A stretch of DNA of 64,000 nt from Pseudofrankia inefficax (lineage in GTDB: Bacteria; Actinomycetota; Actinomycetes; Frankiales; Frankiaceae): NCBI RefSeq assembly GCF_000166135.1, contig NC_014666.1, positions 4,216,001 through 4,280,000 of the forward strand, given 5' to 3'. Under the pieces are notes generated by a model, which saw nothing but the letters and a program-made list of their open reading frames with translations, made no database searches and was not told the DNA's origin. The translations under genes were made by a program, and so were the position numbers. This document shows, piece by piece, positions 34,444 through 55,235 of the stretch. How positions within the stretch are numbered: the first letter of the stretch is position 1; each line of letters begins with the position of its first letter.

Positions 34444-37400
34444 TCAGTCCCGCGGGTCGGCGAACTCGAGGCACCAGGTCCAGCGGTACTCGCCGGCGGA
34501 GATCCGGTGCTGGGGGAGCGTGTCGGGCCCGAGGGCCGCGGTGCCGAGGCCCCGGTGGGCGAGGTCGAGGTGGACGAAGGTCTCGCCGCGCGGGGTGAGC
34601 TCCCAGACGTGTCGGGCAGCCTCCAGGTCGGTGGCCTGGAAGTGCGAGACGTTCAGCTGCATCGGCCGGTCCGGGCTGACGGTGATCTGGTGGCCGCCGG
34701 GGCCGGTGAGCGTCAGCTCGCGGACGTCGGCCCGGCCGCCGTTCTCCTGCGGGAGCAGGTAGGGCACAAACAGGTCGCCGACCTCGGCGGTCCAACGGCC
34801 GAGCAGTCCTGATCGCTTGCGGTCCGGGTAGGTCTCGTGGGGCCCGAGGCCGAGCCAGCTCAGGTGCTCGTACCCGGGGACCGTGGCGAAGACGATGCCC
34901 AGCCGCGGAACGTCGTCCAGCTCCGTCGGCAGGACCACGTGCTCGTCGAACCGGAACGTGGTGTCCGACAGGGCGGTGATCTGCTGCTGGTGTTCGATCA
35001 CCGCGCCGTAGGCGGCGGTGTAGCGGCTGACGATCGCCGCGGTCGACCCGGTGGTCTTCTGGTCGAGGACGGTTCGGGTGACGCGGAACAGGCCGGTGCG
35101 CACGAACCGGGAGTCCAGGGGGAAGGACGCGTCGTTGTCGGTCGGCGCCCGCCAGAACGACAGCACGGGTGGGGCGCTGAGGGCAGGGTGGAGCAGCAGG
35201 CCGTCATCGTCCAGCGTCAGCACGCCGGTTGCGGGACGCGGTTCGGACCAGGTGGGCACGGCCCGGTCGAGCGGGACCTGAAGGCGGGCGAGCTCGGTGC
35301 CCTCCTCGGCCCACGGGGTGGTTTCGGCCAGGTGGACGACGAGGGTGAGAGCGACGGCGTCCGGCCGGGCGAGCTGCTCGACCACGGCAGCGGGCAGGTC
35401 GAGGCGGCCCTCACCCCCGGCGGGGATCGCCGGCGGCGCGACCAGGACAGCCTCGCCGGGGCCGTCGACCCCTTCGACCTGCAGCGCGAGGCGGAGCCGG
35501 GACAGGTCCTCGAACGTCTGCCGGTTCCGCAGCCGGACCCGGCCGAGCAGGGCCTCGTCCGCGCCGGACACGACGCGGACGGGGGCGAAGAGGTGGCGTG
35601 CCTCGTGGAAGGCGGGCTTGGGACTGTCGTCGGAGAAAAGGACGCCGTTGATGCAGATGACGCCGTCGTTGGGCTGGTCGCCGAAGTCCCCGCCGTAGCG
35701 GAACCGGCCGTCGCCGTCGGGGTCCAGCCCGTGGTCGTAGAGCTCCCAGATGAACCCGCCCTGCAGGCCGGGGGTGGACTCGAACAGGTCCCAGTAGGCG
35801 CCGAGCCCGCCGGTCGAGTTGCCCTGCGAGTAGGCGTACTCGCAGGCGATGACCGGCCGGTCCGCGTCGGGGTGCGCCGCGTAGGCCCGCAGCGCGTCGA
35901 GGACGGGGTACATGGGGCAGACGACGTCGCTGGCGTGGTGGCCGCCGAACCAGTCGTCGTTGATCGCCCCTTCGTAGTGCAGCGGCCGGGTCGGGTCGTA
36001 CCGGCGGGCCCAGCCGGCGGCGGCGTCGTGGTTGGCGCCGTAGCCGCTCTCGTTGCCGAGTGACCAGAGGAGCACCGAGGGGTGGTTCTTGTCGCGCAGC
36101 ACCATCCGGGACACCCGGTCGACGAACGCCCCGAGGTAGCGCGGGTCGGCGCTGACGGTCCCGGGATAGGCGTGGGCCTCGATGTTCGCCTCGGCCACGA
36201 CGTACAGGCCGTACTCGTCGCACAGGTCGAGGAAACGCGGGTCGTTCGGGTAGTGGGACGTGCGGACCGCGTTGATGTTGAACGTCTTGAGCAGGCGCAG
36301 CTCGGCGCGGATCTGGTCTTCGGTGATGACCCGGCCGGTCCGCGCGTTGAAGTCGTGCCGGTTCACCCCCTGAATCCACACCCGGCCGCCGTTGACCAGC
36401 AGATCCCGGCCGCGGATCTCGACCCGGCGGAAACCCACCCGGACCGTGACCCGCTCGACGACCTCGCCGCCCGGCGCGACGAGCTCGACCTCCAGCGGAT
36501 ACAGACAGGGGTTCTCCGCCGACCACGGCGTGACCGCGAGGCCCTCGCTCTCGAAACGCACGAGGCCGGCGCGGGGCGGCAGCGCGCGGTCCTGCATCCG
36601 GCGCGCTCGCACCCGCTGCTCGTCGGACAGCGGCGCTCCCGACGGGGCCAGCGACAGCAGATCCAGCAGCCCGGCGGGGATCACCGAAGGCGGCGGCTGC
36701 TCGGGGTACCCGGAGTCGGCGCTGCCCTGCGGAACGCCCGCTCCCGCGCTTCCGCCCGGGACGCCCAGCGGCGCCGGTGCGAACAGATCGGCGAGACGGG
36801 TGCGTACCGTCCAGCCGGGCGCGGGCTCCCCGCAGCCGCCGACGGTCACGTCCAGCCGCAGCCGGCCGGCCGCCGTCGTGGCGTCGAAGTCGGCCACGGC
36901 CTGGAGGTCGGCGAGGTAGGTGGGGGCGGTGGTGTAGAGGTACACCGAGCGGGCGAGGCCGCCGTGCCACCACTGGTCCTGGTCCTCCACGTAGGTGGCG
37001 TCCGACCATTTCACGACCGTCAGCTCCAGGTCGTTCACGCCTGGCCGGACGAATCCGGTGACGTCGAACTCGGCCGCGAGGTGCGAGTCCTTGCTGAACC
37101 CGACGTCGTGGCCGTTGAGTCGAACCAGCAGCGCGCTCTCCGCCGCGCCGACGTGCAGGACGACCCGCCGCCCCGCCCACTCGCCCGCGGTGAACCGGCG
37201 CCGGTAGACCCCGGTCGGGTTCGCCGCCGGCGGGTGCGGGTAAGGGGCGTCGAACGGCAGGATGACGTTCGTGTACTGCGGACGATCCCCGCTGTCCTGC
37301 ATCGTCCACAGACCCGGCACCTCGACAGGCCGCCACTGCTCGGCGCGTTCGGCGCGGGGGTCGGGCAGCAGCTGGAAATCCCAGACGCCGTCCAGCACGA

Positions 37401-37506
37401 GCCGCTCGGGATGCGGCGCCGCGTGCATCGGCACGCGGTTCCAGGAGACGAGCTCGGGCGCGTCCCAGGGCTGGACGGCGGCCAGGCCGGCCACGTTCAC
37501 GGTCAT
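34444..37506 (-). CDS. lacZ: Glycoside hydrolase family 2 beta-galactosidase
   Basis: A 1020-residue GH2 enzyme with the same length and five-domain layout as E. coli LacZ: sugar-binding jelly roll (PHPERLVLDGVWDFQLLPDP), Ig-like domain, TIM barrel, second Ig-like domain and the beta-galactosidase small-chain domain. The acid/base Glu is at about 486 (SLGNESGYG), the nucleophile Glu at about 556 (ACEYAYSQGN). ATG 37506 overlaps the galK stop (ATGA). An insertion around residues 235-300 (Gly/Pro-rich) is unusual. Last gene of galT-galK-lacZ: it releases galactose that galK and galT then process. Regulated through the operator at 40011-40024. Confidence 0.93.
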   Translation of the reverse strand: MTVNVAGLAAVQPWDAPELVSWNRVPMHAAPHPERLVLDGVWDFQLLPDPRAERAEQWRPVEVPGLWTMQDSGDRPQYTNVILPFDAPYPHPPAANPTGVYRRRFTAGEWAGRRVVLHVGAAESALLVRLNGHDVGFSKDSHLAAEFDVTGFVRPGVNDLELTVVKWSDATYVEDQDQWWHGGLARSVYLYTTAPTYLADLQAVADFDATTAAGRLRLDVTVGGCGEPAPGWTVRTRLADLFAPAPLGVPGGSAGAGVPQGSADSGYPEQPPPSVIPAGLLDLLSLAPSGAPLSDEQRVRARRMQDRALPPRAGLVRFESEGLAVTPWSAENPCLYPLEVELVAPGGEVVERVTVRVGFRRVEIRGRDLLVNGGRVWIQGVNRHDFNARTGRVITEDQIRAELRLLKTFNINAVRTSHYPNDPRFLDLCDEYGLYVVAEANIEAHAYPGTVSADPRYLGAFVDRVSRMVLRDKNHPSVLLWSLGNESGYGANHDAAAGWARRYDPTRPLHYEGAINDDWFGGHHASDVVCPMYPVLDALRAYAAHPDADRPVIACEYAYSQGNSTGGLGAYWDLFESTPGLQGGFIWELYDHGLDPDGDGRFRYGGDFGDQPNDGVICINGVLFSDDSPKPAFHEARHLFAPVRVVSGADEALLGRVRLRNRQTFEDLSRLRLALQVEGVDGPGEAVLVAPPAIPAGGEGRLDLPAAVVEQLARPDAVALTLVVHLAETTPWAEEGTELARLQVPLDRAVPTWSEPRPATGVLTLDDDGLLLHPALSAPPVLSFWRAPTDNDASFPLDSRFVRTGLFRVTRTVLDQKTTGSTAAIVSRYTAAYGAVIEHQQQITALSDTTFRFDEHVVLPTELDDVPRLGIVFATVPGYEHLSWLGLGPHETYPDRKRSGLLGRWTAEVGDLFVPYLLPQENGGRADVRELTLTGPGGHQITVSPDRPMQLNVSHFQATDLEAARHVWELTPRGETFVHLDLAHRGLGTAALGPDTLPQHRISAGEYRWTWCLEFADPRD

Positions 37507-38759
37507 TCTTGGCCGCTCTCCTTCATCGAGTCGTTGGTGGTGCGCGGCAGGTGCTCCTGGACAGGAATCAGCGAGGTTCCGCCGACCGGCCGGCAGAGGT
37601 GAACGACGCCGTCCCGTCCGGTCGCGGCGCGATAGTCGCCGAGGACCGCCCCCGCGAACGCGTCGGCCGATTGGGCGTCGACCAGCGCGAGGACGCAGCC
37701 GGCGAAGCCGCCGCCGGTCATCCGGGCGCCGTGGCAGCCTGGAGCGGTGCGGCAGGCGGCGACGGCCGCGTCGAGCTCGGGGCCGCAGACCTCGAAGTCG
37801 TCACGCAGGGACCGGTGACCGTCGAGCAGCACCGCCCCGGCGCGGGCGAGGTCCGAGCGCGCCAACGCGGCGACGACGTCCCGGACCCGCGTGTTCTCGG
37901 TGACGAGGTGCCGCGCCCGGCGCAGCTCCACCGGATCGAGGCGGTCCGCCGCGTCGGCCGGCAGGTGGTCTCCGAGGTCGCGCAGGCTGGCGACGCCGAG
38001 CCCGGCGGCGGCGCGCACGCACTCGGCGCGGCGCTGGCCGTAGGCGCTGGTCACCAGCTCCCGGCGGGTGCCGGTGTCCACGATCGCCACGACCACCGAG
38101 TCCGGCACCGCGACCGGGAGCATCGTGAGATCACGGAAGTCGATCCGCAGCGCGTGGCCGGCCGTCGAGGCGGCGCAGGCCAGCTGGTCGAGCAGCCCGG
38201 TCGCGGCGCCCACCCAGTGGTTCTCCGCCCGGTGGGCGAGCCTGGCCGCCGCGACCGGGTCCCAGTCTCGCCGCCAGGTGACCGCGCAGGCACGGGCGAC
38301 GGCCAGCTCCAGGGCCGCGGACGACGACAGTCCGGCGCCGGCCGGCAGATCGCTGGCCAGCGACCCGTACCACCCTCGGGACGCGCCGGCGCCCGCGGCG
38401 GCCCCCATCGCCGCGACCACGCCCTCGACGTACCCGGCCCAGCCGGCCTGCGCCCGCGCCGCCCGGCCCGGCGGACCGGACGCGGACAGCGCGGGTGGTG
38501 GCAGGTGCACACGTGCCGGCGCCTCGCGATCCTCGGAGAACACCTCGATGAGCGCGCCGGCCTCCTCCGCCGGGCTGAACGCGAGGCACAGCTCCAGGCC
38601 GACGGCCAACGGCAGGCAGAGCCCGTCGTTGTAGTCGGTGTGCTCGCCGATCAGGTTCACCCGGCCGGGCGAGCGCACCAGGTAGCGGGGCGCGGCGCCG
38701 AAGGTCTCGACGAACGCCGCCACGGCCCGCCGCGCGGCGTCCGGGGCCTCGGCCGTCAC
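37503..38759 (-). CDS. galK: Galactokinase
   Basis: A 418-residue GHMP kinase that phosphorylates galactose at C1, the entry to the Leloir pathway. The galactokinase signature PGRVNLIGEHTDYNDG, the ATP loop LPAGAGLSSSAALELA and the C-terminal MTGGGFAGCVLAL are all intact. GTG 38759 overlaps the galT stop (GTGA), and its own stop overlaps the lacZ start, so the three genes are translationally coupled. No galE is in the window, so UDP-galactose epimerase must be supplied elsewhere. Confidence 0.93.
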   Translation of the reverse strand: MTAEAPDAARRAVAAFVETFGAAPRYLVRSPGRVNLIGEHTDYNDGLCLPLAVGLELCLAFSPAEEAGALIEVFSEDREAPARVHLPPPALSASGPPGRAARAQAGWAGYVEGVVAAMGAAAGAGASRGWYGSLASDLPAGAGLSSSAALELAVARACAVTWRRDWDPVAAARLAHRAENHWVGAATGLLDQLACAASTAGHALRIDFRDLTMLPVAVPDSVVVAIVDTGTRRELVTSAYGQRRAECVRAAAGLGVASLRDLGDHLPADAADRLDPVELRRARHLVTENTRVRDVVAALARSDLARAGAVLLDGHRSLRDDFEVCGPELDAAVAACRTAPGCHGARMTGGGFAGCVLALVDAQSADAFAGAVLGDYRAATGRDGVVHLCRPVGGTSLIPVQEHLPRTTNDSMKESGQE

Positions 38760-39907
38760 GACGACCCCACGACGGCGCGCAGCATCGCCGCTGCCCGCTC
38801 CGGGGTGATGTCGCGCTGGGCGCCGGCGAGCATCTCGTAGCCGACGAGGAACTTCCGGACGGAGGCCGACCGGAGCAGCGGCGGATAGAAGTGCGCGTGC
38901 AGCTGCCAGTGGTCTGGCGCGCCCGACCGGGCCGGGGACGAGTCCGCGGGTCCAGGCGCGCCGTGCCAGCCCATCGAGTACGGGAACGGCACCCCGAACA
39001 GGCCGTCGTAGGCCGCCAGCAGGGTACGGATGATCACGACCAGGCTGGCGCGCAGCTCGTGGTCCAGCTCCGGGAGGCCCGCGACGGGGCGGACCGGGAC
39101 GAGCATCGTCTCGAACGGCCAGACGGCCCAGTACGGCACGACCGCGAGCCAGGCACTGTTCGCGGCCACGACCCGTTCGCCCGCGGCACGTTCGATCTCG
39201 GCGTAGTCGACCAGCAGGCGCCGGCCGTGCCGGCGCAGGTAGCCGAGCTGGCGGGCGTCCTCGGCGGCGGGCTCGTCGGGCAGCGAGGCGCTGGCCCAGA
39301 CCTGGCCGTGCGGATGCGGGCTGGAGGCCCCCATCGCGGCGCCGCGGTTCTCGAAGATCTGGACCCAACGCCACTGCCGGGCCAGCTCGGTGGCCTGGTC
39401 GACCCAGGTGTCGACGACCGCGCCCAGCTCGCCGTCGGACATCGCGGCGAGGTGCCGGTCGTGGCGTGGGCCGAAGCACAGCACGCGGCAGACACCGGCC
39501 TCCGGCTCGGACCGCAGCAGCTCGCCGACGTCGATCCCGCCGACCGTGAGGATGGACGCCGCGCGCCGGTCCTGGTCAGTGAGAGTTCGGTCGGCGTCGG
39601 GCCGCAGGGCCGGGAAGTCGTTGGTGAACACGTACGGGCCGACGTACGCGGGATTCCGGAGCTCGGGTCCGCCGCCGCCGCCTGGATCTCCGAGGTTGCG
39701 CAGGTTGCCGGGGCACAGTGGGCACGCCGCGTCGTGGCTGACGGCCTCGGGTGGGCTGACGGCCTGGCTGTCGCCGGACCAGGGCCGTCGATCCCGGCCG
39801 GCGGACACCAGAATCCACCTGCCTCGCAACGGATCGAACCGCCGGTGCGACGGCGGGGGAGCGTCGGGCGGCTCGCCACCTGGCGGGTGAGGGGTCAGCG
39901 CGTGCAC
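38756..39907 (-). CDS. galT: Galactose-1-phosphate uridylyltransferase
   Basis: A 383-residue HIT-superfamily enzyme that swaps UMP between UDP-glucose and galactose-1-phosphate. The active-site HPH motif is at about residues 198-200 (SSPHPHGQVWA), with the upstream FENRGAAMG and the N-terminal zinc-type cysteines CPLCPG. The C-terminal HWQLHAHFYPPLL is typical. GTG 39907 start, with GGGAA upstream; the first ~20 residues are Pro-rich and may vary. It begins the galT-galK-lacZ operon, whose likely operator is 40011-40024. Confidence 0.93.
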   Translation of the reverse strand: MHALTPHPPGGEPPDAPPPSHRRFDPLRGRWILVSAGRDRRPWSGDSQAVSPPEAVSHDAACPLCPGNLRNLGDPGGGGGPELRNPAYVGPYVFTNDFPALRPDADRTLTDQDRRAASILTVGGIDVGELLRSEPEAGVCRVLCFGPRHDRHLAAMSDGELGAVVDTWVDQATELARQWRWVQIFENRGAAMGASSPHPHGQVWASASLPDEPAAEDARQLGYLRRHGRRLLVDYAEIERAAGERVVAANSAWLAVVPYWAVWPFETMLVPVRPVAGLPELDHELRASLVVIIRTLLAAYDGLFGVPFPYSMGWHGAPGPADSSPARSGAPDHWQLHAHFYPPLLRSASVRKFLVGYEMLAGAQRDITPERAAAMLRAVVGSS

Positions 39908-40399: not shown

Positions 40400-41398
40400 A
40401 TGGGCTTCGAAAAGCCTGGCATCACACTGGCCTGCGGTTTACCGCCGGGGCCGGACTTCGCGGACCTCGCGGTGCTGGCCGAACAGCTTGGCTATGCCCG
40501 GGTCTGGATCTACGACTCGGCGCCGCTGTGGGAGGACCCCTTCGTCCACCTGGCCCTGGCCGCGCAGCGCACGACCCAGATCGGGCTGGGGACCGCCGTC
40601 CTGATTCCCCAGCAGCGCTCCGTCATGGCGATGGCCAGCGCGGTCGCGACCCTCGCCCGGATCTCCGAGGGCAGGTTCCTCGCCTGCTTCGGCACCGGCT
40701 TCACCGCCCGCCTCACCGTCGGCCAGCGCCCGATGACCCTGGACGCGCTGGGTGCCTACGTGACCGCGGTGCGCGCGCTGCTGGCCGGCGAGACGGCGGT
40801 CGTGGACGGGAAGCCGGTCCGGATGCTGCACGCCGACGGACTCGCGGCGCGGCGCCCGATCGAGGTTCCGCTGTGGCTGAGCGTCTTCGGCCCCCGCGGC
40901 ACGGCCCTGGCCACCGACCTGGCCGACGGCGTGATCGGCCCACCCCACGCCACCCTGCCGACCGCGACGATCCTGTCCGGCACGGTGCTGGACCCGGGGG
41001 AGAACGCCGGGTCGGCCCGCGTCCGCGAAGCCGTCGGGCCCTGGCGGATCGTCGACTGGCACAACGCCTACGCCCGCGGCGGCGCGGCGGCGGTCGACGC
41101 CCTGCCCGGCGGCCAGGCCTGGCGCGAGGCCCTCGAGGCGCTCGCCCCCGAGGAGGAGCGTCACCTCCTCACCTTCGAGGGCCACGTCACCCACCTGACC
41201 GACCGTGACCGCGGCCTGCTCGACCACATCGACACCCGGATGATGATCGGCGACGCCACCCGCATCGCCAAAAGCCTCACCCGCCTCGGGACGGCCGGCT
41301 TCTCCGAGGTCATCTACACCCCGTCCGGGCCGGACATCGCCCGAGAACTGACCGCGTTCATGGTCGCCCAGCCCGCACCGCTGCCGGCGACGGTCTGA
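40400..41398 (+). CDS. Luciferase-like monooxygenase/F420-type oxidoreductase
   Basis: A 332-residue TIM-barrel protein of the bacterial luciferase-like superfamily: VLAEQLGYARVWIYDSAPLWEDPFVHLALAAQRT, TAVLIPQQRSVMAMASAVATLARISEGR and FGTGFTARLTVGQRP are typical. Members use FMNH2 or F420; the actinobacterial setting and a TGFT-like segment make F420 use plausible. A TTA codon lies at 40439-40441. First gene of the TetR-controlled operon running to about 45042, so it probably acts in the same pathway as the Rieske oxygenases. Confidence 0.87.
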   Translation: MGFEKPGITLACGLPPGPDFADLAVLAEQLGYARVWIYDSAPLWEDPFVHLALAAQRTTQIGLGTAVLIPQQRSVMAMASAVATLARISEGRFLACFGTGFTARLTVGQRPMTLDALGAYVTAVRALLAGETAVVDGKPVRMLHADGLAARRPIEVPLWLSVFGPRGTALATDLADGVIGPPHATLPTATILSGTVLDPGENAGSARVREAVGPWRIVDWHNAYARGGAAAVDALPGGQAWREALEALAPEEERHLLTFEGHVTHLTDRDRGLLDHIDTRMMIGDATRIAKSLTRLGTAGFSEVIYTPSGPDIARELTAFMVAQPAPLPATV

Positions 41399-41472: not shown

Positions 41473-42738
41473 GTGCCCCATTTCGCCAAGCCCTCGGCGG
41501 GGAGCTGGACCCAGCATTACCCCGAGCTGGGAACGGCGCCCGTCGACTACACCGACTCCGTCGACCCGGCCTTCTACGAGAAGGAGCGAGTCGCCATCTT
41601 CCGCCGGTCCTGGCTGAACGTCGGCCGGGTCGAGCAGGTCCCGCGCACGGGCAGCTACTTCACCAAGGAGCTGGCCGTCCTCGACACCTCGCTGATCGTC
41701 GTGAAGGGAGCGGACGGCACGATCCGCGCCTTCCACAACGTCTGCCGGCACCGGGGCAACAAGCTCGTCTGGAACGACTTCCCCGGTGAGGAGTCGTCCG
41801 GGGTGTGCCGGCAGTTCATCTGCAAGTACCACGCCTGGCGCTACGACCTGACCGGGAAGCTGACCTTCATCCAGCAGGAGGGTGAGTTCTTCGACGTCGA
41901 CAAGGAGCAGTACGGCCTCAAGGAGGTCCCCTGCGACGTCTGGGAAGGCTTCATCTTCATCAACCTGGAGCCCCAGGAGAGCCTGACCGAGTACCTCGGC
42001 GACCTGGCGAAGGGCATCGAGGGCTACCCGTTCCACGAGATGACCTCGGTCTACACCTACAAGGCCGAGGTGGGCAGCAACTGGAAGCTGTTCATCGACG
42101 CGTTCGCGGAGTTCTACCACGCCCCGGTGCTGCACCATAAGCAGGCGGTGAAGAACGAGGCCGAGAAGCTCGTCGGCTACGGGTTCGAGGCGCTGCACTA
42201 CGAGCTGCGCAGCCCGCACTCCATGGTCTCCTCGTGGGGCGGCATGGCCCCGCCCAAGGACCCGTCCATGGTCAAGCCGATCGAACGGGCGCTGCGCAGC
42301 GGCCTGTTCGGCCCGTGGGACCGGCCCGCGATCGACGGCCTGGACCCCCTGCCGCCCTCGATCAACCCGTCCCGGTCGCCGTCGTGGGGCACCGACTCGT
42401 TCGAGTTCTTCCCGAACTTCACGCTGCTGTTCTGGGCGCCCGGCTGGTACCTGACCTACAACTACTGGCCGACCGCGGTCGACCGGCACCAGTTCGAGGC
42501 GAACCTCTACTTCGTGCCCGCGAAGAGTGCCCGGGAGCGGCTGGCCCAGGAGCTGGCGACCGTCACGTTCAAGGAGTACGCGCTCCAGGACGGCAACACC
42601 CTGGAGGCGACGCAGTCGATGCTCGCGTCCCGTGTCGTCTCCGAGTTCCCGCTGTGCGACCAGGAAATCCTGCTCCGGCACCTGCACAAGGTCGTCGGTG
42701 ACCGCGTCAAGGAGTACACCGATGCCGCTGCCCGCTGA
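41473..42738 (+). CDS. Rieske non-haem iron oxygenase, alpha subunit (1)
   Basis: A 421-residue ring-hydroxylating-type oxygenase. Rieske [2Fe-2S] ligands: C91-x-H93 (CRHRGN) and C117-x2-H120 (CKYH). Mononuclear iron site: D209, H216 and H221 in the segment DAFAEFYHAPVLHH. GTG 41473 follows GGAGAG. Its paralogue is at 43072-44331. Each alpha gene is followed by a ~110-residue conserved small gene instead of a normal beta subunit, and no ferredoxin or reductase is present in the window, so electrons must come from elsewhere. Probable role: hydroxylating the aglycone (aromatic or terpenoid). Confidence 0.92.
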   Translation: MPHFAKPSAGSWTQHYPELGTAPVDYTDSVDPAFYEKERVAIFRRSWLNVGRVEQVPRTGSYFTKELAVLDTSLIVVKGADGTIRAFHNVCRHRGNKLVWNDFPGEESSGVCRQFICKYHAWRYDLTGKLTFIQQEGEFFDVDKEQYGLKEVPCDVWEGFIFINLEPQESLTEYLGDLAKGIEGYPFHEMTSVYTYKAEVGSNWKLFIDAFAEFYHAPVLHHKQAVKNEAEKLVGYGFEALHYELRSPHSMVSSWGGMAPPKDPSMVKPIERALRSGLFGPWDRPAIDGLDPLPPSINPSRSPSWGTDSFEFFPNFTLLFWAPGWYLTYNYWPTAVDRHQFEANLYFVPAKSARERLAQELATVTFKEYALQDGNTLEATQSMLASRVVSEFPLCDQEILLRHLHKVVGDRVKEYTDAAAR

Positions 42739-43045
42739 GTTCTCCGACCTGGAGCCGTACCTGGACTGGGCGCTGCCCACCGAGTCCGAGCGCTACGCCC
42801 GCCGGCTGGCCTCCTCGCTGGAGGACATGCAGACCTTCTACGACGCGGCGTTCGCCCGCCTCGAAGAAGCCATCGTCTACTGCGACAAGCACCCGTACGA
42901 CGACCTGCCCGACGACGTCCGCACGCTGCTGCAGCTCATGCAGTCGCTGGTGATGGTCTCGTTCCCGGTCGAGGTCTGGAAGCAGGCCCGGGTGCCCGAC
43001 AGCGGCGCCGCGTACCTGACCGTCACCGCCGAGCCGGTGGTCTGA
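42722..43045 (+). CDS. Small conserved Rieske-partner protein (1)
   Basis: A 107-residue helical protein overlapping the end of the Rieske gene by 17 bases (ATG 42722, alpha stop 42736-42738), so translationally coupled. Core: LPAEFSDLEPYLDWALPTESERYARRLASS, YDDLPDDVRTLLQLMQSLV. It matches the protein at 44336-44671 in order and length. It is too short and too helical for a ring-hydroxylating beta subunit (usually 160-190 residues, NTF2 fold). I do not recognise a named family; a dedicated subunit or chaperone of the oxygenase is the likely role. Confidence 0.8.
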   Translation: MPLPAEFSDLEPYLDWALPTESERYARRLASSLEDMQTFYDAAFARLEEAIVYCDKHPYDDLPDDVRTLLQLMQSLVMVSFPVEVWKQARVPDSGAAYLTVTAEPVV

Positions 43046-43071
43046 CCAGCCGAGATCGGAGGAGGTCCGCG

Positions 43072-44331
43072 ATGGCGCTGTATCCCAAGCCCGCCGAGGG
43101 AAGCTGGACCGAGCATTTCCCCGGCGTCGGGACGGGCGTGCTCTCCTACGAGGACTGCATCTCACCCGAGTTCTACAAGGCCGAGAGCGAGGCGATCTTC
43201 AAGCGGGCCTGGCTGAACGTCGGGCGCGTCGAGGACGTGCCCCGCCCGGGCAGCTACTTCACGAAGGAGATCGAGGTCGCGACGACCTCGCTCCTCGTCG
43301 TCCGTGACCTGTCCGGCGAGGTCAGGGCGTTCCACAACGTCTGCCGCCACCGCGGCAACAAGCTGATGTGGAACGACTACCCCCGCGAGGAGACCGCCGG
43401 CTCGTGCCGGGCGTTCACCTGCAAATACCACGGCTGGCGTTACGACCTCACCGGCAAGCTCACCTTCGTCCAGCAGGAGGGTGAGTTCTTCGACCTCGAC
43501 AAGGCCGACTACGGGCTGATCCCGGTGGCCTGCGAGGTGTGGGCGGGTTTCATCTTCATCAACCTGGCCAAGGACCCCGAGCCGCTCCAGGATTTCCTGG
43601 GTTCGATGGTCACCGAGCTGACCGGGTACCCGTTCGACGCGCTGACCGAGCGGTACGACTTCACCGCCGACATCCGGTGCAACTGGAAGATCTTCCTGGA
43701 CGCGTTCCAGGAGTACTACCACGTGCCGGTCCTGCACTCCCAGGAGGCGACCCCCACAGCACGGCCGAAGATGCCCGGGTTCGAGGCGCCGTACTACAAC
43801 CTCGACGGGCCGCACCGGATGGTCGCCACCTCGGGGGCGCCGCGCCGGCGCTGGCCCGCCGACTACCAGTACCCGATCGAGATCGCGACCCGCAGCGGGC
43901 TGTTCGGCCCGTGGAACGAGCCCGACCTCGGCGACGACCTGCCCGGCGTGAACCCCGGCGGAATCAAGGCCTGGCAGATGAGCAACTTCCAGATCTTCCC
44001 GAACATGGAGATCCTGATCTGGCAGACCGGCTGGTACATGCTCTACCGCTACTGGCCGACGTCGCACGAGAGCCACCGCTTCGAGGGCTCGCTGTTCTTC
44101 CCGCCCGCGAAGACCGCCAGCGACCGTGCCGCCCAGGAATGCGCCGTCGTCATGTTCAAGGAGTTCGCGCTCCAGGACGCCGGAATGCTCGTCGGCACCC
44201 AGCAGGGCCTCGCCTCGCGGGCCGTCCGCGACGACTTCCCGCTCAGCGACCAGGAACTGCTGGTGCGCCACTTCCACAACTCGGTCGCCAGCTGGGTCGA
44301 CGGGTACCAGCGCGAGAAGGCGGGGGTGTGA
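43072..44331 (+). CDS. Rieske non-haem iron oxygenase, alpha subunit (2)
   Basis: A 419-residue paralogue of the 41473-42738 protein with the same start (PKPAEGSWTEHFPGVGTGVL). Rieske ligands C91/H93 and C117/H120 (CKYH), iron site D210, H217 and H222 (DAFQEYYHVPVLH). GGAGGAGG precedes ATG 43072. Differences lie mainly in the pocket region after residue 225 (TPTARPKMPGFEAPYYNLDG), suggesting a different or successive substrate. Also coupled to a small partner gene. Confidence 0.92.
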   Translation: MALYPKPAEGSWTEHFPGVGTGVLSYEDCISPEFYKAESEAIFKRAWLNVGRVEDVPRPGSYFTKEIEVATTSLLVVRDLSGEVRAFHNVCRHRGNKLMWNDYPREETAGSCRAFTCKYHGWRYDLTGKLTFVQQEGEFFDLDKADYGLIPVACEVWAGFIFINLAKDPEPLQDFLGSMVTELTGYPFDALTERYDFTADIRCNWKIFLDAFQEYYHVPVLHSQEATPTARPKMPGFEAPYYNLDGPHRMVATSGAPRRRWPADYQYPIEIATRSGLFGPWNEPDLGDDLPGVNPGGIKAWQMSNFQIFPNMEILIWQTGWYMLYRYWPTSHESHRFEGSLFFPPAKTASDRAAQECAVVMFKEFALQDAGMLVGTQQGLASRAVRDDFPLSDQELLVRHFHNSVASWVDGYQREKAGV

Positions 44332-44335
44332 CGCG

Positions 44336-44671
44336 ATGAGCGACCCCGTGCTTCCCGCGGACTTCGCGGACCTGGAACCGTTCGCCGCTACCTGGTGCCT
44401 GGCGACCGAGCCGGAACGCTACGCGCGCCGCATGGCCAGCACGATGGCCGAGCTGGAGGCGTTCTACAGCGCCGCGTTCCCGCGCGTCGCGGACGCGCTC
44501 GGGTACTGCGACAAGTTCCCGCTCGACGATCTGCCCGACGACGCCCGTCAGCTGCTGCAGCTCGTGCACTCGCTCATCATGGCCGCGATGTGCGTCGAGA
44601 TCTGGCACCAGCCGAACGTCATCGACGGCGCCGAGGCCGTCCTCGACCGCGTCGCGGAACCACTGCCCTAG
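44336..44671 (+). CDS. Small conserved Rieske-partner protein (2)
   Basis: A 111-residue homologue of the small protein at 42722-43045: LPADFADLEPFAATWCLATE, ERYARRMASTMAELEAFYSAAF, YCDKFPLDDLPDDARQLLQL. It begins 4 bp after the second Rieske stop. The repetition of alpha gene plus small gene shows this is a functional module, duplicated together. Unknown family; oxygenase partner inferred. Confidence 0.8.
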   Translation: MSDPVLPADFADLEPFAATWCLATEPERYARRMASTMAELEAFYSAAFPRVADALGYCDKFPLDDLPDDARQLLQLVHSLIMAAMCVEIWHQPNVIDGAEAVLDRVAEPLP

Positions 44672-45142: not shown

Positions 45143-47731
45143 TCAGGCCGTGTATTCGTGAGTCCCGGGGCCCACGACGTGCTCCGTGCCGTTCGGCAGC
45201 CGCACGTCGGCGGTGGTGTTCGGCGGCAGGGTCACCGTCAGGTGAAGGTCCGTTCCGGTTCGGGTCCAGGAGCTCGCCACCGTGCCGTAGACGCTGGTGT
45301 AACGCGCTTGGGCGGACGTCAGGCTGCCGCCCGGCACCGGGGCGATGGTGAAGTGGTTCTCCCCGGTGACGCGCAGGCCGGCGACCGTGTCGAACAGCCA
45401 CTGGCAGACGGCGCCGGGGGAGTAGTGGTTCCGGCTTTCCTTGCCCTCCCAGTCCTCCCAGACCGTTGTCGCGCCCGCCTTGACCTCGGCGAGCCAGCTC
45501 GGCGCGTCCTCGTTGTCCAGCATCCGGTAGGCGATCTCGGGGTGACCGGCCGCGGTGAGCGTCGGCAGCACGAACGGCGTCGACAGGAAACCGGTGTTGA
45601 CGTGGAAGTCCCGGTTCTTCACCGCCTGCACGAGCCGGTCCTCCAGACGGCGCTTCACGTCGCCGTCGGCGAGGCCCAGCGCGAGCGGGCGCACGAGCTT
45701 CGCCTGCCGGTCGGTGTCGAGAGTGCCGTCGCGCAGGAACTGGTGCGTGTACGCGGCCTTCGCGCCTTGGGCGTACTCGGCGAACAGGTCCGCGTCCGCG
45801 GTCTCGCCGAGCACGGTCGCGATCTCGGCCAGGTGCGTCATCGTGTAGTGCAGGTAGGCCGTCGCCTCCTCGGGCATCGGCGTGCGGCCGGGGGACGGGT
45901 CGCGGAACTCGGCCGCCTCCAGCCAGTCGCCGAGGTGCACGCCCTTCTCGTACAGGTATCGCGCGTGCGGGTTGTCGGCGGCGGCCTCGGGGTCGAGCGG
46001 GCCCGCGTTCGTGATCATGAACATCGCGTAGCGGCGCATCGCGTCATAGCAGTCGCGCAGGATGCTCTCGTCGCCGTAGCGCTTCCAGTAGCGGTAGGGG
46101 ATGAGCACCACCGCGTCGGCCCACCCGACGGAGCCGCCGGTGGTGTCGTAGAGCATCGACGTGCCGTTGTAGGGGATGACGGCGGACAGCTTCCCGTCGG
46201 CGAGCTGCCCGTCGCGGACATCCCGCAGCCATTTGCGGAAGAACGCGCCGACGTCCATCAGGTAGGCGGCCGTGTCGAAGAAGACCTGGGCGTCGCCGGT
46301 CCAGCCGAGGCGCTCTCGGGTCGGGCAGTCCGTGGGCACGTCGAGGAAGTTGCCCTTCATGCTCCACCGGGTGTTCTCCAGGAACCGGTTGACTCCCTCG
46401 TGCGAGGTGACGCACGTGCCGGTCTGCTCCATGGCGGAGTACACCGCGATCGCCTCGAAGTCCGCCGGGTCGATGTCGAGGTCGGTCTCGACGAGGGCGT
46501 AGCGGAACCCGAAGACGGCGAAGCGGGTCACGTAGTGGTCGGTGCCGCCGCTGGCGGTGAACACGACCTCCTGCTTCGGCGTGGGCTGCAGCTCGCCCTT
46601 GATCTCGCTCTCCTGGCCGGTGAGGAGGAGGATCTCGACGTCGCGGCCGAACTCGTGCACGGGCTTGCGTAGCTGGAAGTTCCGCTGGGTGAACTCGCCG
46701 GCCCCGTCGAGGATCTCGCCGAGGCGCAGGGTGAGCCGCTGGCCCGCGCGTCCCGAGACCGTGAAGGCGACGAACCCGGCCAGGTTCTGCCCGAAGTCGA
46801 GGACGCGCGCCCCGCTCGGGGTCGTCAGCAGCCGGGCGGGGAACCGTTCGTGCTCGGTCACCGGCACGTTGTCGGCCGCGGTGGGGATCATCGTCTCGGT
46901 CGTGATCCGGGCGTGGCCCGAGTAGCTCGGCGCGAGCCGGGCGTCGTAGACCTCGCCGTCCTGCAGGTCGGCGAACCGCACCGGGCCGTCGTCGCTCCAC
47001 CGGAACCGCTCATCGCTGCCGACGGTCTCGGTGGAGCCGTCCGGATACGTCAGCTCCAGCTGGGCCAGCAGCCTCGTCTCGCGGCCGAACACGTGCGTGG
47101 CCCCGAACGCGCCGAGCGACCCGCGATACCAGCCGTCGGCCAGGCGCACCTCCAGCACGTTGTCCGCGGCGAGCAGGCTCGTCACGTCGAAGGTCTGGTA
47201 GTGCAGGCGGTGACGGTAGTCGGTGGCACCGGGACCGAGACGGGCCTCGCTCACCGGCTCGCCGTTCAGCACGGCCTCGTAGACGCCGGCCGCGGTGATG
47301 TACAGGCGGGCGGCCAGGACCGGCTCCCGTACGCGGAAGTCGCGGCGGAAGTGGTCGACCGGGTAGCGCACGTCGGGCTCGGGCGTGTAGTCACCGGTGA
47401 TCCACTCGGCGGTCCAGTCGGCCGGGTCGAGCAGTCCCAGCTCGAACCACGACTCGGCGGGCGGTCCCGCGGCGCCGGCCTCGTCCCAGAGGACGACCGA
47501 CCAGTCGACGCGGTCGCGGCTGCCCAGCGGGACGCCCTCATACCGAACGTGGGTCATCCGTGACGAGGCGACCTTGCCGGTGTCCCACACCGTCTCGCCG
47601 CCGCGGCGGGCCACGACCTGGTAGGCCGTCTGCCGCAGGCCGCCGTCCGCGTTCCAGTAGAGGCGGGGCGCGGTGATCCCCAGGCCGAGCGGCTCGGTGA
47701 GGTACTCGGTGCGCAGCCGGATCGCTCTCAT
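45143..47731 (-). CDS. Glycoside hydrolase family 78 alpha-L-rhamnosidase (2)
   Basis: An 862-residue GH78 rhamnosidase with the full family layout: N-terminal domain MRAIRLRTEYLTEPLGLGI, rhamnosidase beta-sandwich (AARLYITAAGVYEAVLNGE), and (alpha/alpha)6 domain with VPTDCPTRERLGWTGD acidic cluster, GDWLEAAEF and TVWEDWEG. It lacks the C-terminal helical tail of the other GH78, and the two are only distantly related within the family, suggesting different linkages. ATG 47731 is preceded by GGGCAGGCG-type sequence. Its promoter region carries two LacI-type operators (47818-47831 and 47859-47872). Confidence 0.92.
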   Translation of the reverse strand: MRAIRLRTEYLTEPLGLGITAPRLYWNADGGLRQTAYQVVARRGGETVWDTGKVASSRMTHVRYEGVPLGSRDRVDWSVVLWDEAGAAGPPAESWFELGLLDPADWTAEWITGDYTPEPDVRYPVDHFRRDFRVREPVLAARLYITAAGVYEAVLNGEPVSEARLGPGATDYRHRLHYQTFDVTSLLAADNVLEVRLADGWYRGSLGAFGATHVFGRETRLLAQLELTYPDGSTETVGSDERFRWSDDGPVRFADLQDGEVYDARLAPSYSGHARITTETMIPTAADNVPVTEHERFPARLLTTPSGARVLDFGQNLAGFVAFTVSGRAGQRLTLRLGEILDGAGEFTQRNFQLRKPVHEFGRDVEILLLTGQESEIKGELQPTPKQEVVFTASGGTDHYVTRFAVFGFRYALVETDLDIDPADFEAIAVYSAMEQTGTCVTSHEGVNRFLENTRWSMKGNFLDVPTDCPTRERLGWTGDAQVFFDTAAYLMDVGAFFRKWLRDVRDGQLADGKLSAVIPYNGTSMLYDTTGGSVGWADAVVLIPYRYWKRYGDESILRDCYDAMRRYAMFMITNAGPLDPEAAADNPHARYLYEKGVHLGDWLEAAEFRDPSPGRTPMPEEATAYLHYTMTHLAEIATVLGETADADLFAEYAQGAKAAYTHQFLRDGTLDTDRQAKLVRPLALGLADGDVKRRLEDRLVQAVKNRDFHVNTGFLSTPFVLPTLTAAGHPEIAYRMLDNEDAPSWLAEVKAGATTVWEDWEGKESRNHYSPGAVCQWLFDTVAGLRVTGENHFTIAPVPGGSLTSAQARYTSVYGTVASSWTRTGTDLHLTVTLPPNTTADVRLPNGTEHVVGPGTHEYTA

Positions 47732-47817
47732 CGCCTGCCCTGTTCGTCGCTGGACGTCGGGCCGCTCTCGGCCGACGGCGGCTTCCCCGTGGTCCTCGTG
47801 CGAAGATCCCGTCGTAA

Positions 47818-47872
47818 CTAGCGCCCGCTAGCGTGGCGACGAAGCTACCAGCGGTCCGCTAGAGCGGGCAAG
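47818..47872. promoter_or_regulatory. Paired LacI-type operators upstream of GH78
   Basis: CTAGCGCCCGCTAG (47818-47831) and CTAGAGCGGGCAAG (47859-47872), 41 bp start to start, 87-141 bp before the GH78 start. Confidence 0.7.
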
Positions 47873-47889
47873 TTTCGTCGACACTGTTC

Positions 47890-47917
47890 CAACAAGAGTG
47901 ATGCATCTATATTGATG
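47890..47917. promoter_or_regulatory. MarR-type operator upstream of the PhyH/ABC pair
   Basis: CAACAA (47890-47895), 16 bp, TTGATG (47912-47917). On the minus strand the 18-mer of 47900-47917 matches 15869-15886 at 16 of 18 bases. It lies 78-105 bp before the start at 47995. Strong hint of control by the MarR protein of 15907-16374. Confidence 0.65.
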
Positions 47918-47994
47918 GAATCTGGCGAGGCGTTCCGCCCGGCCGCACGGCCGCCGCCGCACCGCCCGCCAAGCCCGAACGGAGGAGGTAGACC

Positions 47995-49212
47995 ATGTCG
48001 ATCGCCCTGGACCGCCGGACCCGTCTCGACTCGGACCTGCGCACGTTAGGGATGGCGGAGTTCCTCGCCGGTGACTTCCCGGATCTCGTCGTGCGCCACG
48101 GCGCCCTGGTGGCGCGCGGTGTCGAGGCGTTCGGCGCGCCGCCGCTCGCCATCGAGACCGCCGACGGTTCCTGGTCGTTCGCCGCCGACGGCGGCACGCT
48201 GGCCGTCTCGCCCGGAGTCGCGCCCGGTGCGCTCGTGGTGACGCTCGACGGGGACGCGTTGTCCGACTGGTTGCAGAACCAGCGCTCGTTCAACGCGATG
48301 ATCACCGCCCGCGAGCTGCGGTATCGCGGTGGCGGCGAGTGGGACGTGTCGGTCTGGGACTCGCTGTGGCTCACGCTGCTGGAGGGCTGGCCGGTCGTGG
48401 ACGACGGGATCGAGTTCCTCGACCGCCACGGGGCACCGCTGGACCTCGGCCGCGTGCTCACCCCGGACGACGACCCGGCCGAGGTCGCGCACTTCCTGCG
48501 CGAGGCCGGGTTCCTGCACCTGCGCGGCTGGCTCGACCCGGCCGACATGCGGAAGGTCTCGGACGAGATCGACCGCGCGCTCCCGGACTACCACGAGGGT
48601 GACGGCCGGTCCTGGTGGGCGACCGTCGCCGGCGGGACCCGTCGCTGCGTCCGGCTCCAGGAGTTCGTCGAGAGGTCCCCGACGACCGCGGCGATCCTGA
48701 ACGGCGCCCGCTGGGACCAGCTGCGCCGCATGCTGGCCGGCGACGACGAGCTCGTCCGTAAGACCGGTGCCCGTGGCCTGGAGGCACTCATCAAGCCGCG
48801 CGACGTCGTCGCCGGCGCGTCGGACGTGAGCTTCCACCGGGACTGCCACTTCGGCCGGCACGCCTACCAGTGTTCCGGCACCGTCGTGGGTATCGCCGTC
48901 ACCGCCAGCGGCGAGGCGAACGGGCAGCTACGCGTCGTCGCGGGCTCCCACCGGGTGCTGATGCCGGTGGAGATCGCCAAGACCAGGCCCTACCTGCCCG
49001 TCGTCGCCGTGCCGACCGAACCGGGAGACCTCACCGTGCACCTGAGCTGCACGCTGCACGAGTCGACCCCGCCGCTCCTGGCGGAACGCCGCGTCATGTA
49101 CACCGGCTTCTCGCTCGCCCCGCGCGAGCCGGCGGCCGGCGGCAGCCAGGCGCTCTCCGACCTGCGCGAGCGGGTGTCCCGGCTGCTGCTCGAACAGGGC
49201 TCCCGGCCATGA
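47995..49212 (+). CDS. SCP2-like plus PhyH-like dioxygenase fusion
   Basis: A 405-residue protein. Residues ~1-130 look like a sterol-carrier/SCP2-type lipid-binding domain (LAIETADGSWSFAADGG, ALVVTLDGDALSDW, NAMITAREL). Residues ~155-385 are a PhyH-like Fe(II)/2-oxoglutarate dioxygenase with FHRDCHFG (His-x-Asp) and a distal His in CTLHESTPPLL. A TTA codon lies at 48046-48048. A lipid-binding domain fused to a hydroxylase suggests a hydrophobic substrate such as a sterol or triterpene. It is followed by an ABC exporter gene 21 bp downstream and preceded by the MarR-type site. Confidence 0.82.
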   Translation: MSIALDRRTRLDSDLRTLGMAEFLAGDFPDLVVRHGALVARGVEAFGAPPLAIETADGSWSFAADGGTLAVSPGVAPGALVVTLDGDALSDWLQNQRSFNAMITARELRYRGGGEWDVSVWDSLWLTLLEGWPVVDDGIEFLDRHGAPLDLGRVLTPDDDPAEVAHFLREAGFLHLRGWLDPADMRKVSDEIDRALPDYHEGDGRSWWATVAGGTRRCVRLQEFVERSPTTAAILNGARWDQLRRMLAGDDELVRKTGARGLEALIKPRDVVAGASDVSFHRDCHFGRHAYQCSGTVVGIAVTASGEANGQLRVVAGSHRVLMPVEIAKTRPYLPVVAVPTEPGDLTVHLSCTLHESTPPLLAERRVMYTGFSLAPREPAAGGSQALSDLRERVSRLLLEQGSRP

Positions 49213-49233
49213 CCGCCACCCGCGAGAACGCCG

Positions 49234-50994
49234 ATGGCGCGTAGCGACGCGGCGCGGACGTCCGCGCCGCGCACCCTGTTCGGGCACGCCGGCGACGGCG
49301 CCTGGCTCCTCGTCGGCGGCTACGTGCTCATCCTCGTCGACGCCGTAGCGCAGAGCCTCACACCCGCGGTGTTCCGGGTCGTCCTCAACCGCATCCAGCA
49401 CGACCCGCACCAGTTCGTCCGCACCGGCTGGCAGGGGCCGGCGCTGGGCGCGGCAGCCATCGCCGGGACGTTCCTCGTCGCGGCGTACCTGGCGCACACC
49501 TGGACCCGCCGCGGTGCGGCGCGGTGGGCCAACAACCTGCGCGGCGCCCTGTACGAGCATGTGCAGCGCCTGTCGATGGACTTCTTCCACCGCTCCCACG
49601 TCGGCGACCTCGCCGCCCTGATCAACCAGGACACCGAGCGGCTGGAACTGGCGGTCTGGCAGGGCCTGACGCTGTGGTGGGCGGTGGCGCTGCTGCTCAT
49701 CTCGGTGGGGCTCATCGCGTGGGTCGACCCGTGGATGGCGCTGCTCGCGGTCGGGCTGCTCGCCGTGGCCGTGGTGTGGACCCTGCTGGTCCTGCCACGG
49801 CTGCGCCGCCACACCCGCGACATCCGGGACGAGCTCGGCCGGACCTCCGGGACGCTCGCCGAGATGCTGGGCGTGAACGCGCTCCTGAAGGCGTTCAACG
49901 CCGAGGACCACGCGCTGGGCCAGGTCCGCGACGGCACCGAGCGGATTCGCGCCGGCTCGGAGACCTTCGCGCGGCTCCAGCATCGCTACGCCGACCCGCT
50001 GGGCTTCCACCTCTCGTTCGTCGCGCCGTTCCTGCTGCTGTTCGTCGGGGCGTGGCGGTCGGCGACCGGAACGCTGGAGATCGGCGACGTGGTCGCCATC
50101 TGGGGCTTCTGGATGCGCGGGTCGACCGCGCTGACGGCGGTCATAACGACCCTGCCGGAGGTCCTGGCCGGCATGGCCGCCAGCGAGCGCACCGCGGAGC
50201 TGCTCGACGAACGGCCCGCCGTGGCCGACCGGCCCCACGCGCCGGCGCTGGCCGTCACGCGGGGTGGCGTCGCCTTCGAAGGGGTCTCGTTCGCCTACCC
50301 GGGACGGGAGTCACGGCTGGTCCTCGACCGGTTCGACCTGACGCTCGAGCCCGGCCAGACGACCGCGCTCGTCGGTCCGTCCGGGGCGGGGAAGTCCACC
50401 GTCGCCCAGCTGCTCCTCCGGTTCTTCGACCCGACCGGCGGCCGGGTGACGATCGACGGCCGCGATCTGCGCGAGGTCACCCAGGCCTCGGTGCGCGCCG
50501 CCATCGGTGTCGTGTTCCAGGACTCCGTGCTGGTCAGCGGCTCGCTGGCGCGCAACCTGCGACTGGCCAGGCCGACCGCGACCGACGAGGAGATCGTCAC
50601 CGCGCTGGAGGCGGCGAACGCGTGGGAGTTCGTCCGGGCCTGGGACGACGGCGTCGAGACCGAGCTCGGCGAACGCGGCGTGACCCTCTCCGGTGGCCAG
50701 CGCCAACGCCTCGCCATCGCCCGGGTCATGCTGAAGGACCCGGCCATCGTGGTCCTGGACGAGGCGACCAGCGCGCTTGACGCGTCCGGCGAGCGCCTGG
50801 TGCTCGGCGCCCTCGACCGGCTGCTCGCCGGCAGGACGTCGCTCGTCATCGCCCATCGCATCGCGACCGTCCGCCAGGCCGACCAGATCGTGGTCGTCGA
50901 ACGCGGCCGCGTCGGCGACATCGGCACGCACTCCTCGCTGCTGCGTACGTCGGCGACCTATCGCTCCTACTGCCGGGAGCAGGCCGTCGCGTAG
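49234..50994 (+). CDS. ABC exporter (TMD-NBD), homodimer-type
   Basis: A 586-residue ABC exporter with six membrane helices (for example LLVGGYVLILVDAVAQSL, WWAVALLLISVGLIAWV) and an ATPase domain: Walker A VGPSGAGKST (about residue 380), signature LSGGQRQRLAIARV, Walker B IVVLDEATSALD with the catalytic Glu. All motifs are canonical, so it can work as a homodimer, unlike the heterodimer of 12097-15770. No clear Shine-Dalgarno is seen, consistent with coupling to the upstream dioxygenase. Probably exports the product or substrate of that enzyme. Confidence 0.9.
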   Translation: MARSDAARTSAPRTLFGHAGDGAWLLVGGYVLILVDAVAQSLTPAVFRVVLNRIQHDPHQFVRTGWQGPALGAAAIAGTFLVAAYLAHTWTRRGAARWANNLRGALYEHVQRLSMDFFHRSHVGDLAALINQDTERLELAVWQGLTLWWAVALLLISVGLIAWVDPWMALLAVGLLAVAVVWTLLVLPRLRRHTRDIRDELGRTSGTLAEMLGVNALLKAFNAEDHALGQVRDGTERIRAGSETFARLQHRYADPLGFHLSFVAPFLLLFVGAWRSATGTLEIGDVVAIWGFWMRGSTALTAVITTLPEVLAGMAASERTAELLDERPAVADRPHAPALAVTRGGVAFEGVSFAYPGRESRLVLDRFDLTLEPGQTTALVGPSGAGKSTVAQLLLRFFDPTGGRVTIDGRDLREVTQASVRAAIGVVFQDSVLVSGSLARNLRLARPTATDEEIVTALEAANAWEFVRAWDDGVETELGERGVTLSGGQRQRLAIARVMLKDPAIVVLDEATSALDASGERLVLGALDRLLAGRTSLVIAHRIATVRQADQIVVVERGRVGDIGTHSSLLRTSATYRSYCREQAVA

Positions 50995-51083
50995 GGGCGT
51001 CGTGCCCAACCGACGGGTGACACAACCGTGAGGGGTACCAGCGGTGACTCCCGCGCGGCCGAACCCGCGCCTACCGTCGAACC

Positions 51084-52025
51084 ATGACAGGCAACTCCAG
51101 TGATCACCGTGGTGAGGTGCGCGAGTTCCTGACCTCGCGCCGAGCGCGGCTGTCCCCGCGGCAGGCGGGGCTGGCCGCGTTCGGCGCCAACCGCCGGGTG
51201 CCCGGCCTGCGCCGGGAGGAGGTCGCGGCCCTCGCCGGTGTCAGCGTCGCCTACTACACCCGCCTGGAACGCGGGAATCTCGTCGGCGTCTCCGAGTCCG
51301 TGCTCAACGCGGTCGCCGGCGCGCTGCGGCTCGACGACGCCGAGCGGGACCACCTGTTCGACCTGGCCCGGGCCGCCAACCTGTCCGCGTCCGCCCGGTC
51401 CGGGGCGAGCGCCACGCGGGCCCGGGTGCCGGCCGGGATCCAGCAGGTGCTCGACGCGATCACCGACGCGCCGGCGGACGTGCGCAACGGCCGGCGGGAC
51501 ATTCTCGCGTCCAACAGGCTCGCCTACGCGCTGTACAGCGAGGTCCACGCCGAGCCGGTCCAGCCGGCGAACCTCGCGCGGTTCACCTTCCTCAACCCGA
51601 AGGCGCGGGACTTCTTCGTCGACTGGCCCAAGGCCGCCCATGACATCGTCGCGGGCCTGCGGATCGAGGCCGGTCGCCACCCCTACGACAAGCCGCTGTC
51701 GGACCTGGTCGGGGAACTGTCGACCCGCAGCGAGGAGTTCCGCGTCCGGTGGGCGTCGCACAACGTGCGGCACCACACCTCGGGCACGAAGAAGCTGCGC
51801 CACCCGGTGGTCGGCGAGATCGAGCTCGCGTTCCAGGCGTTCGCGCTGCCCGGCGACGCCGGCCTGAACCTGTTCGTCTACACGGCCGCGCCGGACTCCC
51901 CGGCGCAGGAGGCGCTGCGGTTCCTGGCCAGCTGGGCCGACGGCCAACCCCCGGCCCCAGCGGGCGGAATCTCGTCGCGCGACGGCGACCCGGCTGGCGC
52001 GCCCTCGCGTGCCGCCAACGCCTGA
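51084..52025 (+). CDS. XRE-family regulator with MmyB-like ligand domain
   Basis: A 313-residue regulator: an N-terminal helix-turn-helix of the type VPGLRREEVAALAGVSVAYY followed by TRLERGN, then an MmyB-like C-terminal domain (PADVRNGRRDILASNRLAYAL, FTFLNPKARDFFVDW, HNVRHHTSGTKKLRHPVVGE). Such regulators are common in actinobacteria and bind fatty-acid-like or other small ligands. It lies 61 bp before an aldo/keto reductase gene, the classic partner, and probably represses it. Confidence 0.9.
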   Translation: MTGNSSDHRGEVREFLTSRRARLSPRQAGLAAFGANRRVPGLRREEVAALAGVSVAYYTRLERGNLVGVSESVLNAVAGALRLDDAERDHLFDLARAANLSASARSGASATRARVPAGIQQVLDAITDAPADVRNGRRDILASNRLAYALYSEVHAEPVQPANLARFTFLNPKARDFFVDWPKAAHDIVAGLRIEAGRHPYDKPLSDLVGELSTRSEEFRVRWASHNVRHHTSGTKKLRHPVVGEIELAFQAFALPGDAGLNLFVYTAAPDSPAQEALRFLASWADGQPPAPAGGISSRDGDPAGAPSRAANA

Positions 52026-52086
52026 TCCCCGCGCGCGACGCCGCGGCCGTCCGTGGCGTCCGCGCTTTAGTGAATGGAGGCTCGTC

Positions 52087-52974: not shown

Positions 52975-53005
52975 CCGGCAGCGCGCTATCTGGCGCTATT
53001 CGGTC
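52973..53005. terminator. Compact hairpin between convergent reductase and methyltransferase
   Basis: GACCG (52973-52977) with CGGTC (53001-53005) and inner AGCGC (52980-52984) with GCGCT (52993-52997). It overlaps both gene ends. Confidence 0.45.
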
Positions 53006-53718: not shown

Positions 53719-54266
53719 CTCGCGGGCGGCTCCCCTCCGATTACCGACGGTCGACGCGAGTCCTTTGGCGCGGCGCCAGTCCGACCCGTGTGGTGGGGTT
53801 TGGGATGGCGCGCGCGGTCACCTGCTACAGCTGACCGCCGCCTGAGCAGTAGGAACCCGAGGTTCGCCTCGGTCCTCGAATTCCCCGGACCGCTGCTTCG
53901 ACCCTCGAATCGACCCCGCTGGCCTGTTCAAGGGCCGAATCCAAGAGAAGCCCGTGCGGCTCGGCGCTGTCCCACGACCTTGATCAACGGTGGGTCCCGC
54001 GCGACCAAGGACGCGCGTTTCGTTCCGTCTCGTCGGCGGGCTGGGCGGGGCCGTCGTGCTCGGGGCGTGGGGTACCGCGTTCGTGGTAGTCGGGAATGCC
54101 TCCTGGGAGATGACGACGCGGGGGGTCGGTCCGGGGAGCCTGGTGAGACAGATCGGATCGGCCCCTCAGGCGCCGCCTGTCACCGCTGTCTCGCGCTCGG
54201 ACGAAGGTCCGTCGCCGGCTCGGCGACGAGTGGGGGTCCGGCGACGAGAGACGGAGCCCCCACGAC
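53719..54266. other. 548-bp gene-free region
   Basis: No convincing gene. It contains a compact hairpin CCGAGG-TTCG-CCTCGG (53857-53872) and short C-rich stretches. The promoter of the downstream DUF2993 gene is presumably here. An open frame from 53990 exists but overlaps the next gene and has no family resemblance. Confidence 0.45.
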
Positions 54267-55217: not shown

Positions 55218-55235
55218 ACCGAGCGGCCGTCCCAC

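Follow-up and report, generated by a model that had tools for sequence, protein, structure and literature searches.

Small helical proteins coupled to one branch of Rieske oxygenase alpha subunits, probably as its missing subunit

In Pseudofrankia inefficax, two genes for Rieske oxygenase alpha subunits lie in tandem, each followed by the gene of a small protein, and the locus raises the question of whether these small proteins are subunits of the oxygenases beside which they are encoded. The window analysed here is a stretch of 64,000 nucleotides (positions 4216001-4280000 of the 8.8 Mb single-contig genome). The original prediction had placed in it, at 41473-44671, two modules of an alpha subunit and a partner of about 110 residues, and both the coordinates and the gene pairs were borne out (Table 1). 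The alpha1 protein combines a Rieske domain (CxH...CxxH) with a catalytic domain; small1 starts 17 bases inside the end of alpha1, and small2 begins 4 bases past the stop codon of alpha2. The gene of the luciferase-like (LLM class) oxidoreductase, 74 bases upstream of alpha1, and the DUF1330 gene downstream of small2 likely belong to the same operon as the modules. Related genomes keep the order LLM-alpha-small-alpha-small-DUF1330 at three loci (L045, L218 and L219, of which the first and the last probably represent one assembly), with proteins 86-100% identical. The flanking genes (PhyH and ABC) have been relocated at L218; the six-gene cluster stays intact there while its flanks do not. As read from the sequence, the genes enclosing the cluster form a sugar-catabolism region (window positions 34444-39907 and 45143-57697) with beta-galactosidase-like, galK/galT-like, rhamnosidase-like, sugar-kinase-like and epimerase-like members.

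Table 1. The six-gene cluster, with positions counted from the first nucleotide of the window
Feature	Position	Strand	Evidence
LLM class luciferase-like flavin/F420 oxidoreductase	40400..41398	+	PF00296 E 1.7e-25
alpha1, Rieske oxygenase alpha subunit, 421 aa	41473..42738	+	PF00355 E 4.7e-15, PF00848 E 1.5e-36
small1, helical partner, 107 aa	42722..43045	+	family profile match 6.8e-62; no Pfam/NCBIfam match
alpha2, Rieske oxygenase alpha subunit, 419 aa	43072..44331	+	PF00355 E 9.7e-16, PF00848 E 4.2e-53
small2, helical partner, 111 aa	44336..44671	+	family profile match; AlphaFold pLDDT 89.8
DUF1330 protein, 102 aa	44734..45042	+	PF07045 E 4e-27; position conserved

The alpha subunits pass the PF00355 and PF00848 cut-offs well. 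The Rieske ligands C91, H93, C117 and H120 (alpha2 numbering) are invariant across 17 aligned alphas, as are H217, H222 and D369, the 2-His-1-carboxylate ligands of the iron site. Equally invariant is E214, three residues ahead of H217, where an aspartate is usual; this residue is the candidate for the carboxylate that connects the Rieske cluster with the iron site of the neighbouring subunit, and CntA likewise has a glutamate there. Judged by these residues, the window alphas are catalytically complete, and their oxygenation activity is putative. Their closest solved proteins are CntA (3.4e-25) and biphenyl dioxygenase by sequence, and terephthalate dioxygenase, stachydrine demethylase and CntA by predicted fold. 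The clade to which they belong has eight members in this genome, and many actinobacteria carry several, routinely annotated as aromatic ring-hydroxylating dioxygenases.

The small proteins resemble nothing described in the databases searched. Small1 and small2 are 54% identical and have the ERYARR and DLPDD motifs in common, in agreement with the single conserved family that had been claimed for them. Neither matched Pfam or NCBIfam at E<1, and 53 relatives gave isolated single chance matches at most; the family profile reached a best E of 0.66 against PDB sequences. Foldseek with the small-protein model returned nothing significant (best E 2.0), and the best VIA-align Z of 5.2 is a value that unrelated helical bundles also give. 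The AlphaFold model of small2 (pLDDT 89.8, pTM 0.77) has four helices, at residues 8-20, 25-34, 37-58 and 68-90, and no strand, which upholds the description of these proteins as helical. Its C-terminal tail is modelled at lower confidence, yet it is among the conserved parts (QP..PD.GA...EP). An alignment of 72 family sequences, drawn from both phyla, shows W20, R28, R32 and L73 conserved throughout and not a single invariant Cys or His, so the protein is expected to carry no cofactor of its own. An iron-sulphur, flavin, metal, ferredoxin or reductase protein was rejected on this ground and for want of a Pfam match. A canonical ring-hydroxylating beta subunit (PF00866, an NTF2-type alpha+beta fold) was rejected as well, as originally predicted, since neither the two window proteins nor the 53 relatives match the family and the model is all-helical. 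The genome has one clear canonical beta gene, which lies beside an unrelated Rieske alpha and beside none of the modules.

The small family is coupled to one branch of Rieske alphas. In this genome, each of the seven small genes immediately follows a Rieske alpha at its 3' end, and seven of the eight full-length alphas of the clade have a small partner; the regions of the genome's other Rieske genes held no small-family member beyond noise, even at E=10. A search with the small protein as bait yielded 80 loci from named genomes with 114 copies, the window's two included, and 113 of these immediately follow a Rieske alpha on its 3' side. The gaps in these loci are nearly all between -13 and +50 bases, and such stop/start overlaps or short gaps fit translational coupling of subunits. 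A survey of the class detected the small family in 49 of 393 genomes and the alpha clade in 49 of 387, and these are the identical 49 genomes, with no exception. There, a small gene stands at the 3' end of 122 of the 135 near full-length alphas listed; 24 small genes are without a listed alpha, most of which are explained by the scoring of four alphas per genome at most, and those belonging to this genome were checked and do adjoin an alpha. The association is thus reciprocal, almost without exception, in many soil bacteria and mycobacteria. On the evidence of these sequences, the small protein is probably the missing subunit of this branch of Rieske oxygenases.

The module had also been proposed to have been duplicated as a unit. 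Alpha1 and alpha2 are 53% identical. In the alpha tree, alpha1 falls among single-module alphas of Frankia, Actinomadura, Rhodococcus and Mycobacterium, and alpha2 in a second clade with Mycobacterium and Nocardia, both placements being well supported; the tree of the small proteins places small1 and small2 like their alphas. Alpha and small distances correlate across actinobacterial pairs (r 0.84); exchanging the partners of a locus's two modules lowers the mean to 0.32. For neighbouring genes, linkage by itself can bring about tree congruence of this kind. The agreement of the trees indicates that the two genes of a module diversified together in the distant past, and to this extent the proposal stands. 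A recent local tandem duplication was rejected, since the window modules are not closest relatives in either tree. Because they belong to different old subclades, they are old out-paralogs brought or kept together rather than local duplicates.

The exceptions to the linkage are of two kinds. The single unpaired small gene of the 114 is from Actinomadura barringtoniae (L120, 9995-10315), whose genome encodes three alphas and as many small proteins; its alpha (in L214) is on the same contig at a distance of 36 kb, and both members of this split pair belong to the same subclade and have their nearest relative in the same locus, L078. The small gene is still in its old neighbourhood, with amidohydrolase, SnoaL and acyl-CoA dehydrogenase genes. 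The second kind comprises the 13 alphas, among those listed, without an adjacent small gene. They form one clade (support 100/99) from 12 Frankiaceae genomes (L189, 7442-8845, and L200-L211), are 69-77% identical to partnered alphas and lack any small gene closer than about 3 kb, and all 12 genomes carry small genes elsewhere. As a single clade nested among partnered alphas, they point to one loss of the adjacent small gene. Seven alignment columns separate them from partnered alphas, scattered along the chain with no clear patch. An obligatory subunit, as originally predicted, is not borne out in view of this clade. The partnerless alphas could be served in trans by small genes elsewhere in the genome if the small protein were a dedicated assembly or maturation factor, one that holds the new alpha for insertion of the cluster or iron, or for trimer formation, and then leaves. 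This is the main rival to a structural subunit, and the same linkage data and the want of cofactor ligands would suit it. However, most other Rieske alphas of the same genome manage without such a factor, and the one-to-one matching of subclades exceeds what a shared chaperone needs; we regard it as unlikely.

Beyond actinobacteria, the small family occurs on plasmids of sphingomonads, Acinetobacter, Cupriavidus, Variovorax, Burkholderia, Azospirillum and Paroceanicella, at about 30-45% identity, and all annotated plasmid copies are called 'hypothetical protein'. Of 14 plasmid loci examined, one of them from Rhodococcus, 13 have the small gene next to a Rieske alpha; in Cupriavidus the order is swapped, and the small gene precedes the alpha. 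In this genome, the bait loci, the class survey and the plasmids alike, the family was, with few exceptions, found with Rieske genes rather than away from them. Its most divergent member in this genome (L157, 7837-9323; genome position 3463999) accompanies an alpha whose alignment to the clade is fragmentary, and this locus is a link toward the proteobacterial forms. One record titled Rhodococcus sp. JCM 9791 and labelled Chroococcidiopsidaceae (Cyanobacteriota) is probably a mixed or mislabelled assembly (L048).

The other genes around the modules are variable. Neighbours in other loci include reductases (Fer2/FAD-binding), ferredoxins of the Rieske or plant type, and genes of the SnoaL type. 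That reductase or ferredoxin genes adjoin several modules would accord with a small protein that mediates or regulates electron delivery, docking the ferredoxin or reductase or gating turnover while bound transiently, but no such gene lies beside the window modules and no cofactor motif occurs in the small protein, which makes this role quite improbable. Genes for SDR, SnoaL_4, amidohydrolase and acyl-CoA dehydrogenase proteins recur within subclades and change between them. Adjacency alone cannot distinguish the small protein from such pathway proteins, for instance one that binds or transforms the product and sits beside the alpha through operon structure only, but the small gene, unlike these, adjoins the alpha across phyla, and we give this reading the least credence of all. 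In some proteobacterial loci a SnoaL-type gene of the NTF2 fold adjoins the small gene; there, the small protein would not have to stand in for a beta-like subunit.

We therefore return to the structural subunit, and consider it reasonably likely that each alpha-small pair constitutes one oxygenase, with the small protein as a cofactor-free, non-homologous counterpart of beta, in an alpha3-gamma3 arrangement. This reading is based on the reciprocal linkage, the co-inheritance, the adjacency across phyla, the matched split pair and the absence of cofactor ligands. In such an enzyme, the alpha would supply all catalytic parts, namely the Rieske cluster, the 2-His-1-Asp iron site and the carboxylate three residues before its first histidine, and the small protein would bind the alpha trimer and do the job of the NTF2-fold beta, stabilizing the trimer and shaping the surface on which the ferredoxin or reductase docks. 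Electrons would be supplied by a reductase or ferredoxin that is a separate protein; other loci encode one next to the module, and in this genome its gene presumably lies elsewhere. The conserved C-terminal tail, poorly ordered in the isolated model, would be the likeliest docking element. The window would accordingly hold a pair of these enzymes, each from its own old subclade, clustered with the luciferase-like oxidoreductase and the DUF1330 protein.

Structure prediction was also applied to the complex. A locus with alpha and small in one frame (plasmid sequences being left out) was modelled by AlphaFold as a linked chain, the single intervening stop read as glycine; no natural alpha-small fusion was found among the loci examined. 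The model (pTM 0.74) gave no confident placement of the small protein on the alpha. Tail pLDDT was 76-85 in the linked chain and 68-72 in the isolated protein, which is not a controlled comparison because the sequences differ. This model, the orphan alpha clade, tree congruence of a kind that linkage can produce and the proteobacterial SnoaL-type genes all speak against a structural subunit. The original prediction was right in direction and is partly supported in its interpretation; the observation behind it is confirmed, and is stronger than a reading of the sequence alone could tell.

Among known Rieske systems, the modules resemble the alpha3beta3 enzymes (naphthalene, biphenyl and terephthalate dioxygenase), which have the same alpha domains and a small non-catalytic protein encoded directly downstream; their beta, however, is of the NTF2 fold (PF00866), whereas the window partner is all-helical, 107-111 aa long and matches no family. 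The alpha3 monooxygenases (CntA carnitine monooxygenase, stachydrine demethylase and GbcA) include the nearest alphas by sequence (CntA) and are among the nearest by fold, and have a glutamate at the candidate bridging-carboxylate position; in contrast, CntA is given as a plain alpha3 trimer with no small partner (PMC12445004), and identity over the fold alignment is about 18-20%. Two tandem alpha genes are also a feature of the alpha3alpha'3 and alpha3alpha3 systems (NdmA/NdmB, phthalate dioxygenase), but in the window every alpha comes with a small partner of its own, and the two alphas are of different subclades; we found no evidence in the sequence data for a mixed hexamer. Only alpha3, alpha3beta3, alpha3alpha'3 and alpha3alpha3 forms, and no such small subunit, appear in a 2025 review of Rieske structures (PMC12445004), and no third or accessory Rieske subunit of this kind was found in the open-access literature. 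It is an evenly balanced question whether alpha3 assemblies that need an all-helical gamma unrelated to beta constitute a further quaternary class in Actinomycetota and Proteobacteria, missed as 'hypothetical protein'. If so, an unrelated non-catalytic subunit would be added to the known quaternary forms (PMC12445004). Should the enzyme require the small protein as a subunit, an alpha expressed alone may be inactive or unstable, and every such dioxygenase annotation misses a component.

Three more loci offer further observations. In Acinetobacter from pig manure (L152, 4787-10768) and Novosphingobium (L158, 2802-5191), alpha and small occur with a SnoaL_4 protein and a Rieske ferredoxin, and an acetamidase/formamidase gene lies beside both modules; the Acinetobacter locus also has a styrene/indole monooxygenase-like gene. 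These two loci possibly serve the breakdown of N-heterocycles. The fourteenth plasmid locus, on a lindane plasmid, is broken up by IS6100 copies (L149, 4943-8339; Sphingomonas sp. MM-1 plasmid pISP4); an IS6100-bounded segment there carries the lindane gene linC, an EthD gene and the small protein, and a C-terminal fragment of a Rieske alpha lies across an IS6100 from it; LinC may derive from a broken Rieske-small operon.
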